From: a virus
Virus record (IMG/VR): IMGVR_UViG_3300050015_000058
Location: 1 to 38,700 of that record
DNA length: 38,700 nt
Strand: one strand, 5' to 3'
Position 1 is the stretch's first letter; each line of letters begins with the position of its first letter. The position numbers and the translations under genes were made by a program. The notes below the pieces were generated by a model. It had not been told where the DNA came from, searched no databases, and worked only from the letters and a program-made list of their open reading frames with translations. Positions 2,721 to 37,725 of this stretch are shown piece by piece.

Positions 2721-3068
2721 ATGAACTACAATAGAAACCCTAATACAGCTGACGAAGCACAGCCAATAGCATTACACGCTAACGGCAACGGCGACGGCTA
2801 CGGCTACGGCAACGGCTACGGCGACGGCTACGGCTACGGCAACGGCTACGGCAACGGCTACGGCGACGGCTACGGCTACGGCAACGGCTACGGCAACGGC
2901 TACGGCAACGGCTACGGCTACGGCAACGGCGACGGCTACGGCTACGGCTACGGCAACGGCTACGGCAACGGCTACGGCTACGGCAACGGCGACGGCAACG
3001 GCTACGGCAACGGCGACGGCGACGGCGACGGCTACGGCGACGGCTACGGCTACGGCGGTATATTATAA
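2721..3068 (+). CDS. Gly-[Tyr/Asn/Asp] dipeptide-repeat protein
   Basis: 115 residues: a ~20-residue non-repetitive start, then 46 Gly-X dipeptides and a short GGIL end. X is Tyr 23 times, Asn 14 times and Asp 9 times, never His. All Gly codons in the array are GGC and all X codons are NAC. SD ggag lies 11-14 nt before the ATG. The composition suggests a disordered, sticky or gel-forming protein, or one whose number of repeats changes quickly. The reverse strand is also open (Arg/Ser) but that is a by-product of the repeat. Confidence 0.65.
   Translation: MNYNRNPNTADEAQPIALHANGNGDGYGYGNGYGDGYGYGNGYGNGYGDGYGYGNGYGNGYGNGYGYGNGDGYGYGYGNGYGNGYGYGNGDGNGYGNGDGDGDGYGDGYGYGGIL
2779..3056 (+). repeat. 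Hexanucleotide array GGC-NAC (N = T, A or G)
   Basis: About 46 uninterrupted six-base units with the order of T, A and G varying irregularly. C is absent from the variable position. It encodes the dipeptide array of the gene at 2721. Confidence 0.95.
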
Positions 3069-3823: not shown

Positions 3824-3898
3824 GTCTTCATAGCATAACGGTTAATGCATCGGTGTGAAGCTCCGAGGAACACAGTTCAACTCTGTGTGTTGACACCA
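3824..3898 (+). tRNA. tRNA-Phe (GAA), CCA encoded
   Basis: Complete cloverleaf: D arm GCAT/ATGC with loop AACGGTTA, anticodon loop GTGAAGC (anticodon 3857-3859, GAA, after T33), 4-nt variable loop, T arm CACAG/CTGTG with loop TTCAACT, discriminator A and genomic CCA at 3896-3898. Two adjacent U-U oppositions occur in the acceptor stem (3827/3091-style positions 27 and 28 opposite 3891 and 3890) and one at the bottom of the anticodon stem (3854/3862). It would decode UUC/UUU. The mismatches are unusual for a working tRNA. Confidence 0.82.
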
Positions 3899-26677: not shown

Positions 26678-26937
26678 GATAAACTCCGTTCGCTTTGTTT
26701 AATTTGCTCTTTAGTAAAATATCGTTCTGCTAATTCGCCATCATAGGCTTGTACAAAATCTCGGTTCGGTTTTCCATCTCGGTAGGGTTGGATTATATCC
26801 TTAGAGAATCGTCTACGCTGATCGGCGTGTGAATAACTTTTGAATTGTGTGTCTACGTCGTTGGGTAATGGTTTGTCGATACCTTTGTGATATTTCCCAT
26901 ACTCATCAATATAACCTATATTAGTCTTTGTCTTCAT
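26674..26937 (-). CDS. Hypothetical basic protein in chaperonin operon
   Basis: 87 residues, charged, with YHKGIDKPLPNDVDTQFKSY, HADQRRRFSKDIIQPYRDGK and AERYFTKEQIKQSER. It starts 17 nt inside the end of the GroEL frame, so it is coupled to GroEL translation. No family recognised; possibly a virion or assembly factor that needs the chaperonin. Confidence 0.6.
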   Translation of the reverse strand: MKTKTNIGYIDEYGKYHKGIDKPLPNDVDTQFKSYSHADQRRRFSKDIIQPYRDGKPNRDFVQAYDGELAERYFTKEQIKQSERSLS

Positions 26938-28447
26938 AAGATAGGATTACTCCTGCTGTTATAAGACTTGCAGCCACACTGATAGCATTACGGACTATTT
27001 CCTTAATTACTAGGCTAGCATCGACTACGCCCTCGTCTAATAGGTTCACAGGGTCTTTGGTTAGTTTCTTTAGGTTATATCCATACCAGACTTCTGATTC
27101 TTCTAGACGGGCTATATAAGCCTCTGGGTTAAGACCGACATTAGAAACCAGTAGTTTGAATGGCTCTTGAAAGGCATCATCAAACTCAGTACCTTTGATA
27201 CGGGCTAGTGTAGTACCGCCACCAGGGACTATACCCTCTTTCATGGCTGATTGGACAGAACAGACGGCATCTTGCACTCGGAGTTTGGTTTCTTCTCGCT
27301 CTAAGTCAAGTGCGCCACCAACTTTAATAATAGCCATCTTACCCGTTAAACGGGCTAGGCGGTCTTTGATAAATTGTACGCTTAGTGGGTGATCGGTTTC
27401 TTTTAACTGTTCATGTAAAGATTTAATTCTTGCTTTGACTTCCTTAGAATCGGAATCACCACCTAACATAGATGTAGCGCTCTCGCTGACGATAACTTCT
27501 TTAGCAAAACCTAGATGATCACCAAATGAAAAGTCAATACCATCGTAGACTTTTCCGCCAGTCATGACGGCACAGTCATCCAAAAATAGAGTAGTGCTAC
27601 CAGCCGCGAATGGCGGGTCAATCGGGCAAACGTGAATCTTACCTTGGCTTTTGGCGATCTTAAGTATTTCTAAAGCTACATCTCGGACTTCACCAACTAA
27701 TATTAGTTCTTTCGCACCTTGAGACACAACGGATTCTAATATAGGGGCGATATCTACCTCTGTAGATAGAACTTTAGAACTTATAAGTATAGGGATTTCC
27801 TTATGCAGAGATTGATTGAGTTGCATATCGTTAATTAGAGCAGTGTCCTTATAACCTTTGCCGAAATAAAAGCCATCAATTATCTCGTTATGTACTCCAA
27901 GACCCTCGTATTGTTCAATGATCACGCCGCCGTCTTTTGTAACTTCTCGGACAACATCGGCAATCATATGACCTAGGTTTTCATCGTTGGCACTGATCGT
28001 TGCTACTTTATCGAGCATACTATCATCAGTATCTAGTTTAATGGAATTAATATATTCGATAGCTTTTAACTCTGCATCATGCAATCGGGCGGCTATCTCC
28101 ATAGGTTTCACACCCTTACCCTCTAAGCGTTGCGCGGATTGGATTAGGTGATAAGACAGAATAGTGACAGCGGTAGTTCCATCACCGACTTTCTTATTGT
28201 TCTTTTCGGAAGCTTCACGAATAGACTGGATAATATCATCTTCGAATATATCTTGAGATCTAACCATCTTTATATTAGTAACACCATCTCTTGATAGCAT
28301 TGGTGCGCCATGTCTAAAACCTAGTATTACATTGCCAGAACCAGGCCCATATGCAGCTTTCGCAACATTATATAGAATAGTCGAAGCGCTTTTAATTTTA
28401 TCTTGTACTTGATCTCTATCGGTTATCAATTTAGGTATATGAGCCAT
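26921..28447 (-). CDS. groL: GroEL-type chaperonin (HSP60), phage-encoded
   Basis: 508 residues (about 40 fewer than E. coli GroEL). Key sites present: AYGPGSGNV at 32-40, SRDGVTNIK with Asp54, GDGTTAVTIL with Asp89 (ATP/Mg site), IKVGG at 375, and VQDAV...VPGGG with Asp393 (equivalent to the hydrolytic Asp398 of E. coli). GVVDASLV replaces the usual GI[I/L]DP.KV. The flexible Gly-Gly-Met tail is absent. SD aaggag. It should fold phage proteins, most likely capsid or tail parts, with the GroES-like gene upstream. Confidence 0.95.
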   Translation of the reverse strand: MAHIPKLITDRDQVQDKIKSASTILYNVAKAAYGPGSGNVILGFRHGAPMLSRDGVTNIKMVRSQDIFEDDIIQSIREASEKNNKKVGDGTTAVTILSYHLIQSAQRLEGKGVKPMEIAARLHDAELKAIEYINSIKLDTDDSMLDKVATISANDENLGHMIADVVREVTKDGGVIIEQYEGLGVHNEIIDGFYFGKGYKDTALINDMQLNQSLHKEIPILISSKVLSTEVDIAPILESVVSQGAKELILVGEVRDVALEILKIAKSQGKIHVCPIDPPFAAGSTTLFLDDCAVMTGGKVYDGIDFSFGDHLGFAKEVIVSESATSMLGGDSDSKEVKARIKSLHEQLKETDHPLSVQFIKDRLARLTGKMAIIKVGGALDLEREETKLRVQDAVCSVQSAMKEGIVPGGGTTLARIKGTEFDDAFQEPFKLLVSNVGLNPEAYIARLEESEVWYGYNLKKLTKDPVNLLDEGVVDASLVIKEIVRNAISVAASLITAGVILSYEDKD

Positions 28448-28449
28448 CG

Positions 28450-28704
28450 TTACTCCTTATCAGTTATAAAAATATCTTTTAATTCTATAGCAGCATAGTT
28501 GTCTGCTAAACGTAGATCATCTTTGAACTGTCTCCAGTGTCCGACACGACCAATCATATAGTTTTTATCTTTGTTAGCATCATTAATAGCTATGATAGTC
28601 CCCTCCATTATCGAATCGTAACTTTTTTCAGGTGCTTTAATACCACTATATCTCGGGATTAGTTTAACGAGTGCTATTCCTGGTTCAGGTTCATAGTTTA
28701 TCAT
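28450..28704 (-). CDS. groS: GroES-type co-chaperonin, phage-encoded
   Basis: 84 residues (E. coli GroES has 97). Opens PEPGIALVKLIPR, the first strands of the Hsp10 fold, followed by the loop YSGIKAPEKSYDSIMEGTI. The usual mobile-loop Ile-Val-Leu that docks on GroEL is not obvious. GTIIAIND corresponds to the G.V.AVG strand, and AIELKDIF to the C-terminal strand. Located 2 nt upstream of GroEL. No SD; a promoter ends 7 nt before the ATG, so the mRNA is probably leaderless. Confidence 0.85.
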   Translation of the reverse strand: MINYEPEPGIALVKLIPRYSGIKAPEKSYDSIMEGTIIAINDANKDKNYMIGRVGHWRQFKDDLRLADNYAAIELKDIFITDKE

Positions 28705-32719: not shown

Positions 32720-32747
32720 GATAGTAATTCGTTATGACAACTAAAAA

Positions 32748-32772
32748 GGGCTACCACAACGGTGGCTCTTTT
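32748..32772 (+). terminator. Terminator in repeat copy 1
   Basis: GGGCTACC/GGTGGCTC, 8-bp stem with G-U pairs, loop ACAAC, then TTTT. Confidence 0.75.
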
Positions 32773-32821
32773 ACTTATTTGCTTATACCCCCAATTATCA
32801 ATTCGTTATGACAACTAAAAA

Positions 32822-32846
32822 GGGCTACCACAACGGTGGCTCTTTT
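32822..32846 (+). terminator. Terminator in repeat copy 2
   Basis: Identical to copy 1, 74 nt downstream. Confidence 0.75.
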
Positions 32847-32933
32847 ACTTATTTGCTTATACCCCCAATTATCAATTCGTTATGACAACTGGTTACGTAT
32901 ATAGTACACCAAAATAATGCCTATGGCAATAAA

Positions 32934-36790: not shown

Positions 36791-36846
36791 AAGACAATAC
36801 ACAGACAGTAAAAACATCAATAAAAGTAAACTTGGAGAACAAATAA
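36778..36846 (+). CDS. 22-residue ORF
   Basis: Good SD (aaaggag, 7 nt). FTIKDNTQTVKTSIKVNLEN, a possible beta-hairpin peptide; its end (ggagaac) is the SD of the membrane-segment gene. Too short to interpret. Confidence 0.35.
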   Translation: MFTIKDNTQTVKTSIKVNLENK

Positions 36847-37029
36847 ATGAGTAAAAACGAAACACCAATCGTTAAAGAACCAAAGACAATCAAAGTACGA
36901 ACAGTAGTTATTTCACTAATCGTAGCAGCAGCTATTGCAGCATCATTCGTAGCTGGTTGGAACTATAGAAGTTACGATCAAGCACGTGTTCAAGCCGAAG
37001 CAGCAAGCCTAGTTAAAAATTTAAAATAG
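36847..37029 (+). CDS. Ala-rich membrane-anchor ORF, 0 frame of a frameshift pair
   Basis: 60 residues: a basic start, an Ala-rich membrane segment (VVISLIVAAAIAASFVAGW, about 20-38) and a charged helix (DQARVQAEAASLVKN). The segment is weakly hydrophobic, like signal-arrest-release (SAR) sequences. The stop comes two codons after A AAT TTA, and a -1 shift there continues directly into the lysozyme-like frame (total 186 residues). SD ggag upstream. Without the shift this would be just a short membrane peptide. Confidence 0.65.
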   Translation: MSKNETPIVKEPKTIKVRTVVISLIVAAAIAASFVAGWNYRSYDQARVQAEAASLVKNLK

Positions 37030-37054
37030 AGCCGTTAAAAGCACCTGTAACGGT
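37017..37054 (+). promoter_or_regulatory. Candidate programmed -1 frameshift site
   Basis: Heptamer A AAT TTA (37017-37023) in the 0 frame, 8-nt spacer, and stem CCGTTA/TAACGG (37032-37037, 37048-37053; extendable by one G-U) with a 10-nt loop. The 0-frame TAG is at 37027-37029; the -1 frame is open from 37017 to 37406. Confidence 0.65.
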
Positions 37055-37067
37055 TTCAGAAGTCAAG

Positions 37068-37406
37068 GTGGACACATTAACAACTAGTACGGTTATAGCG
37101 CCACAGAGCGATCCTAAAACACTCACAGGATGTGATCTAGTCAACAACTATGATTGGGACACTGCTACTGCGAGGGCAGTGTGCCTAGCTGAGAGTAACG
37201 GAAACGTAAACTCTTATAATGTGAATACTAACGGCACTGTGGATAAAGGTTTAATGCAGATAAACTCATGCCATGCAGACTTAATAGGTGATAAAGACCT
37301 ATACGACCCTAAAGTCAACATGGATATGGCTTATCAGATCTATAGAGGTAGTGGCTGGAGAGCATGGAGCGCTTATAATAACGGTTCGTATATAACTAAA
37401 CTGTAA
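37068..37406 (+). CDS. Lysozyme-like (transglycosylase-type) domain, -1 frame
   Basis: The frame is open from 37017; GTG 37068 is the only conventional start but has no properly spaced SD. Upstream in-frame codons read as normal protein (KIEPLKAPVTVSEVKVD), so the domain is more likely made by -1 frameshift from the gene at 36847. Domain: YDWDTATARAVCLAESNGN with the expected catalytic Glu, then GTVDKGLMQINSCH, PKVNMDMAYQIYRG, SGWRAWSAYNNGSY, the goose-type/SLT fold pattern. Cuts peptidoglycan; with the Ala-rich anchor it would be exported to the membrane. Confidence 0.75.
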   Translation: MDTLTTSTVIAPQSDPKTLTGCDLVNNYDWDTATARAVCLAESNGNVNSYNVNTNGTVDKGLMQINSCHADLIGDKDLYDPKVNMDMAYQIYRGSGWRAWSAYNNGSYITKL

Positions 37407-37417
37407 CTTAACAAATC

Positions 37418-37560
37418 GGATTGAATATCATCAGAGGCGGTCAGCATCACCTATACGATACAGTAATATCGTGGGAGTAATGCCTTACCAATCGCCCAAA
37501 CTGTTTACTGACAGGGAGGAGACAATTGACTAACTGACCATGACTGAGGGTATTCAATCC
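37418..37560 (+). ncRNA. Structured RNA closed by a 10-bp stem
   Basis: GGATTGAATA (37418-37427) pairs perfectly with TATTCAATCC (37551-37560). Inside: GGTCAG/CTGACC (37439-37444, 37534-37539), ACGATA/TATCGT (37455-37460, 37467-37472), GTAA/TTAC (37477-37488) and CTGT/ACAG (37501-37514). No ORF. Lies between the lysozyme gene and the tRNA mimic. Confidence 0.55.
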
Positions 37561-37578
37561 CCAATATAGCAACAGAGT

Positions 37579-37688
37579 TGTTGGCGATAGGAGTAATTCA
37601 GTTGGTTAGAATCCGAAGTAGTTGTAACCCATTTTATAACTTATCGGTGTCGGCGCTTCGATAACGCCCTCAATGGCTATTGCCAACA
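37579..37688 (+). ncRNA. tRNA-like structure with long acceptor stem
   Basis: A 12-bp stem with one G-U (TGTTGGCGATAG 37579-37590, CTATTGCCAACA 37677-37688) plus GAG/CTC encloses a D arm ATTC-AGTTGGTTA-GAAT (37596-37612), an elongated anticodon-like arm (CCGA/TCGG, then GTTGTAA/TTATAAC) and a T arm GGCG/CGCC with TTCGATA in the loop (37652-37668). D and T loops match tRNA consensus, but there is no normal anticodon loop. Architecture recalls bacterial Y RNAs. A T-rich tail follows, then the SD of the next gene. Confidence 0.6.
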
Positions 37689-37725
37689 GTTCTTTTGCTA
37701 TATGTAAACTAAGAAAGGATAAATA

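Follow-up and report, generated by a model that had tools for sequence, protein, structure and literature searches.

Introduction

Tail chaperones and capsid proteins supply most known cases of conserved phage frameshifting. In tail assembly chaperones such as lambda G-GT, a -1 shift occurs near the 3' end of the upstream ORF with a Lys codon in the A site and yields two products with a common N-terminus, while dnaX (A_AAA_AAG) and the cassettes of IS elements (A_AAG, e.g. IS1222) combine an A_AAR core with a stem-loop a few nucleotides further 3'; all these traits recur, or are inferred, at the locus described here. SAR endolysins and membrane-anchored phage lysozymes resemble it in placing a lysozyme domain behind a single N-terminal transmembrane (TM) segment, and those described so far are, to our knowledge, read in one frame. 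Overlapping frames likewise serve lysis in the enterobacterial phage MS2 and in coupled overlapping lysis genes, and MS2 L is a separate protein made through reinitiation, not a frameshift fusion (cited in PMC5009743). The accessible part of that 2016 review does not mention endolysin, lysozyme or holin. The open-access literature searched, which excludes most subscription journals, holds no precedent for a frameshifted endolysin, holin, SAR protein or lysis gene, and describes no recoding signal in Patescibacteria-associated phages (Saccharibacteria).

The DNA analysed here (the window) is a linear virus record of 38.7 kb that carries genes for a terminase, a portal, a major capsid protein and GroEL, and a recombination block (Rad52-like, YqaJ, HNH/NinG-like) which the lysozyme gene adjoins. 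Judging from the sequence and its relatives, one membrane-anchored lysozyme is very probably split over two overlapping frames of this gene, joined by a -1 slip at T_TTA_AAA that a downstream hairpin would aid.

A lysozyme-like domain in the -1 frame of a membrane ORF

The features of the locus are collected in Table 1. Upstream of the junction the -1 frame is closed by a TAA at 37014-37016 and is open from the next base, confirming the proposal of an earlier note that it opens exactly at a slippery heptamer; the two frames thus share only 37017-37029. The lysozyme/SLT domain that the same note had placed in the -1 frame is borne out by two Pfam families, whose scores exceed the curated cut-offs (51.7 bits against 27 for PF18896, 36.9 against 21.3 for PF01464), and the only start codon of the -1 frame ahead of it is a GTG at 37068. 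The profile of the domain matches solved C-type lysozymes (best 2fbd, E = 3.8e-7), and a catalytic-type Glu, found in AES at 37191-37193, is invariant, as E55-S56 are in the alignments.

Table 1. Features of the frameshift locus in the window
Feature	Position	Strand	Basis or remark
Shine-Dalgarno GGAG of the 0-frame ORF	36834..36837	+	sequence
0-frame ORF (60 aa): one TM segment between a short cytoplasmic N-terminus and a short linker; TAG stop	36847..37029	+	
Predicted TM segment TVVISLIVAAAIAASFVAG, N-in by charge	36901..36957	+	hydropathy, charge count
Overlapping heptamer A_AAT_TTA (proposed in the earlier note)	37017..37023	+	in register; otherwise only in L029 and L030 among 38 members
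-1 frame ORF: linker and lysozyme-like SLT domain, TAA stop	37017..37406	+	
Slippery heptamer T_TTA_AAA (most likely slip site), abutting the 0-frame stop; its A_AAA core is conserved	37020..37026	+	sequence; conserved as NNA_AAR in 37/38 members
0-frame stop TAG	37027..37029	+	
Hairpin 5' arm AGCCGTTA; core CCGTTA 37032-37037, 5 nt after the slip site	37030..37037	+	
Hairpin 3' arm TAACGGTT; core TAACGG 37048-37053	37048..37055	+	
SLT_3 (PF18896) / SLT (PF01464) domain	37158..37370	+	Pfam E = 1.2e-13 and 3.1e-9

Viral contigs and genomes were scanned with the SLT sequence of the window and with alignments grown from it. Systematic reading gave 33 members, and five more were found after the prediction had been written down, for a total of 38 loci with the frameshift layout (37 besides the window) that form 25 clusters at 70% amino acid identity of the SLT half and 31 at 80%. 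The SLT domain lies in the -1 frame of the TM ORF in 38/38 loci; the frame screen covered both shifted frames, and all TM-bearing partner ORFs were of the -1 type. The same layout is seen in L011, on a Saccharibacteria MAG contig (57% identity), where the TM ORF ends in ELVGTLKQ before its stop and the SLT domain follows in the -1 frame with no start codon. The held-out loci match in frame and slip motif in all five cases and in the hairpin in four. The comparison of homologues that the earlier note had proposed accordingly finds slip site, spacer, stem and intact frames kept in the 37 further loci, including the five held-out ones, and supports its main claim that a -1 frameshift joins a membrane ORF to a lysozyme-like half. 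Other searches were less productive: five contigs that are 60-85% identical in the portal (L006-L010) carry no SLT gene, being partial or lacking it, a nucleotide search of annotated phages and a protein search of plasmids gave no match, and a protein search of phages returned distant Rhodococcus phage lysozymes only.

Both halves of the gene appear to be maintained as protein. On either side of the junction, close pairs have a dN much lower than dS, indicating purifying selection, with dN/dS values of 0.027/0.313 and 0.031/0.322 for the two halves of L091/L092, and of 0.153/0.808 and 0.151/0.660 for those of L082/L085. In 29 of 33 members, the 0-frame start is preceded by an SD-like match of 4 nt or longer. 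All 33 anchors contain a TM segment and 30 are N-in by charge, an orientation that, if the prediction holds, would put the SLT domain outside the cytoplasmic membrane. The Ala-rich anchor of the earlier note stands as an N-terminal TM segment (47% G/A/S in the window), and its SAR-like character, including release from the membrane, is unproven: with a KD of 2.37, within a family range of 1.6-2.7, it is by sequence an ordinary N-in, C-out segment.

The probable slip site

From its ATG, the 0-frame ORF runs to a 3' end that reads ...GTT AAA AAT TTA AAA TAG, in which two overlapping canonical heptamers can be recognised. A_AAT_TTA, the slip site favoured in the earlier note, is indeed present and in register, and the stem does begin 8 nt after it; that reading missed T_TTA_AAA, which overlaps it and lies 5 nt upstream of the stem, the spacer being 5 nt when counted from there. 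It is the A_AAA of this second heptamer, and not A_AAT_TTA, that forms the conserved element. An in-frame NNA followed by AAA or AAG, located in the 0-frame overlap 0-15 nt before the stop, is found in 37 of the 38 members, with AAA as the A-site codon in 33/38, and the single exception, L030, has A_AAT_TTA and T_TTA_AAC in its place. Among 33 members, 32 have an in-frame NNA_AAR within the last six codons against 6.7 expected from the background of 4.4% per codon in the same ORFs, counting those of the last six codons that lie inside the open -1 frame. Since this motif, nearly always A_AAA, occupies the overlap in almost the whole family, T_TTA_AAA is most likely the slip site of the window. 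The site is pinned in the window and in L017, because their -1 frame opens just 10 nt before the stop; in members with two candidates, slip codon and spacer were picked member by member. A_AAT_TTA was also considered as the conserved slip site and rejected, as it occurs in only 3/38 members and is absent from L017, whose site is confined to ACAGTTAAAATAA.

The sites are of several types, namely G_GGA_AAA (7), G_TCA_AAA (7), G_TTA_AAA (6), A_AAA_AAA/G (6), T_TTA_AAA (2, including the window) and C_CCA_AAA. A canonical heptamer X_XXY_YYZ is present in 17 of the 38, and the other 21 have the A_AAR tetramer only, which fits the minimal -1 site Z_ZZN as given in the review cited above (PMC5009743). 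According to the same source, a second tRNA-Lys that decodes AAG should make this codon less prone to shifting (PMC5009743). In one member-carrying Saccharibacteria genome, tRNA-Lys genes with the anticodons UUU and CUU are both present, so that AAA would be the codon to expect; this is an inference, with which the preference for AAA over AAG is consistent.

The downstream hairpin

The perfect 6-bp stem CCGTTA/TAACGG described in the earlier note is present at the expected place, and extends to 8 bp when flanking A-T and G-T pairs are counted. On its own it is only weakly unusual (codon-shuffle p = 0.07), and the case for a signal therefore rests on conservation. In nearly all members a hairpin starts 3-9 nt past the Lys codon, mostly at 5-6 nt; over 33 members the combined codon-shuffle Fisher p is about 1e-18 and the mean fold z is -1.8. 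The combined p-value is overstated, the members being related and not fully independent, and the signal is not carried by a few loci, as p is below 0.05 singly in many members and in four of the five held-out ones. The relatives display 26 different arm pairs, every one complementary, and the arms are unrelated between groups, from CCGTTA/TAACGG in the window to GCTACA/TGTAGC in L017, CAGTAGGTA/TACCTACTG in L040, GTAGATACG/CGTATCTAC in L079 and GGCTCTACTG/CAGTAGAGCC in L089. In nine loci of the rumen group, aligned positions covary (G-C / A-U / G-U and C-G / G-C / U-A), two pairs change on both sides, and 96.7% of the cells of the helix are paired compared with 33-51% when it is slid.

Hairpins are weak or offset in L054, L100, L030 and L201. 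The first scan had a loop limit of 30 nt, and reading by eye suggests that L082 and L085 have a longer GGGTCGG/CCGACCC stem at 5 nt, outside its reach. A separate observation concerns L094, L098, L099, L108 and L040, in which the 0-frame stop TAG lies within the 5' arm of the hairpin (CAGTAG/CTACTG), so that stop and stimulator are the same bases.

Proposed mechanism and alternatives

Comparison of the related sequences establishes the -1 layout, the slip motif, the covarying hairpin and the selection on both halves. On this basis, translation would begin at ATG 36847 and produce the TM anchor first; a fraction of the ribosomes would then slip back by one base at T_TTA_AAA, with tRNA-Lys re-pairing on the overlapping AAA and the hairpin 5 nt downstream aiding the slip. 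The shifted ribosomes would bypass the TAG and add the SLT domain, giving ...LVKNLK-IEPLKAP...SLT, an N-in, C-out anchored muralytic enzyme, and the unshifted ones would terminate and release the anchor peptide. Slippage in vivo, its efficiency, the dominant product and the nature of the fusion as an anchored muralytic enzyme are inferred, no fusion product having been measured. The short peptide is plausibly the main product, as the earlier note infers, although no efficiency figure exists, and the inferred purpose would be to hold a dangerous enzyme at a low level, or at a fixed ratio to the anchor peptide.

Past the shift site, the short product carries no residue, or one to five, in nearly all members, so that any function of its own must reside in the anchor. 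One gene could then provide a small membrane protein for lysis timing (holin-, pinholin- or inhibitor-like) together with the anchored lysozyme, at a ratio set by frameshifting, as a lysis clock of Patescibacteria phages; this extension is speculative and, for now, unlikely.

The alternative that the SLT half is a separate protein, made by ribosomes that terminate at the 0-frame stop and reinitiate there or that use an unusual start codon, could draw on the few bases that separate this stop from the -1 frame, as in coupled genes, and on the GTG at 37068 in the window, but it is very unlikely: 20 of the 33 members checked lack any ATG, GTG or TTG ahead of the domain, the ATA that frequently overlaps the stop elsewhere is missing in L029, L030 and L105, and most products would have no export signal if the anchor were absent. 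Moreover, reinitiation predicts neither A_AAA nor a hairpin at 5-6 nt. The A-run present at every shift site admits, in principle, an RNA polymerase that inserts one A and thereby brings the SLT half into frame, and one added base would give the identical protein. Polymerase slippage usually requires runs of about 8 or more, however, and the runs are just 3-4 A in 25/33 members; since a conserved downstream RNA hairpin would be unexpected as well, transcriptional slippage is hardly credible. An indel from sequencing or assembly, or gene decay, conceivable for an A/T-rich stretch on a single metagenome contig, can practically be discarded: 38 loci, drawn from different assemblies and in part from prophages on chromosomes, show a break of identical direction and codon type, and both of its flanks are under purifying selection. 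Ribosomal frameshifting remains the preferred reading, and since 37 related loci keep the slip signal, it seems to be a control device of wide distribution and not an error of sequencing.

Host, genome context and evolution

Two members lie on contigs of Saccharibacteria-class genomes, L029 on one of 578 kb and L030 on one of 164 kb, both beside terminase genes; a tRNA-Gly adjoins L029. The chromosomal neighbours of the two, recognised from their translations, we take to be an RNase HII-like gene and recG, tmk and rpoC/rpoB. Given the terminase genes and the adjoining chromosomal genes, L029 and L030 are prophages on Saccharibacteria chromosomes, and from these and the MAG relatives the host of the phage is most likely a member of the Saccharibacteria, which are tiny bacteria with a parasitic way of life.

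The capsid and GroEL families of the window are shared with a set of related phages (L081, L084, L086-L093 and, in part, L082 and L085), in which some 2 kb separate the lysozyme gene from the capsid gene; in the rumen group it is near the capsid gene. A YqaJ-type nuclease is instead its neighbour in the window, L017, L011, L054, L026 and L108. The genomic position of the gene thus differs between groups, and the frameshift cassette has been retained despite relocation.

Other phages and Saccharibacteria chromosomes carry relatives in which TM segment and SLT domain share a single frame. Relatives with one continuous frame would, according to the earlier note, refute frameshifting; those found sit on other branches of the SLT family, and the closest relatives of the window are all frameshifted. 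The frameshift state clusters in a tree of 56 rows without forming one clade, and at least four state changes are required on well-supported branches. A single origin of the frameshift was thereby rejected, and gains and losses cannot be ordered. Because the single-frame chromosomal proteins L055-L063 and L175-L178 are sister to the rumen-type phage frameshift clade (support of the joint group 100/99), an exchange between phage and host with a change of state is likely on phylogenetic grounds, its direction being undetermined.

Other features of the window were recorded in passing. The 316-nt gap after the lysozyme gene (37405-37720) has no ORF of at least 60 aa and contains two long hairpins; it folds at -98 kcal/mol (z -4.7, 0/100 shuffles as good), has no match in Rfam, and is a candidate structured RNA. 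Both arms of its second hairpin recur in L097 (5361-5391 and 5514-5537) at 96-97% identity, with a different sequence between them. The non-coding stretch 32726-32890 holds 2.2 copies, 100% identical, of a 74-bp unit, each with a small hairpin-like GGGCTACCACAACGGTGGCTC, and two repeat proteins are encoded at 560-1243 and 2721-3068, with units of 15 nt (GNWNSGY) and 12 nt (NGYGYGNG), respectively. A phage GroEL (phrog_5725; 26921-28704, - strand), of a family common to about ten frameshift phages, adjoins a small GroES-like ORF, and a single tRNA-Phe (GAA) gene lies at 3824-3898.

Comparison with known systems

The mechanism is of a known kind, and its use on a lysozyme, in a host group of the Saccharibacteria type, is without precedent in the searchable literature. 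If true, a cell-wall hydrolase behind a frameshift in a large and diverse group of phages would represent a new use of recoding, a new throttle on a self-destructive enzyme and a recoding signal in phages associated with Patescibacteria. Gene finders will miss or truncate every protein of this kind, so that annotation of the lysis genes in these phages is probably incomplete. The about 30 divergent natural cassettes are material for studies of A_AAA slippage and hairpin spacing, and the single-frame chromosomal relatives pose the question of whether the host took up a phage lysozyme with loss of the frameshift, or the reverse.

Compared with systems of the lambda G-GT type, the shift at this locus would add a lysozyme to a membrane anchor rather than extending a tail chaperone, and is accompanied by a conserved hairpin stimulator. 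With respect to dnaX and the IS cassettes, the core is mostly A_AAA and not A_AAG, and gene and purpose are different. The single-frame TM and SLT proteins of phages (L102, L109, L110) and chromosomes (L175-L178, L055-L063) have the same domain order and a related SLT domain, but theirs is one continuous frame with its own start, and they belong to other branches or to the sister of the rumen clade. Finally, in contrast to SAR endolysins, the link between the TM segment and the lysozyme domain would here require a frameshift.
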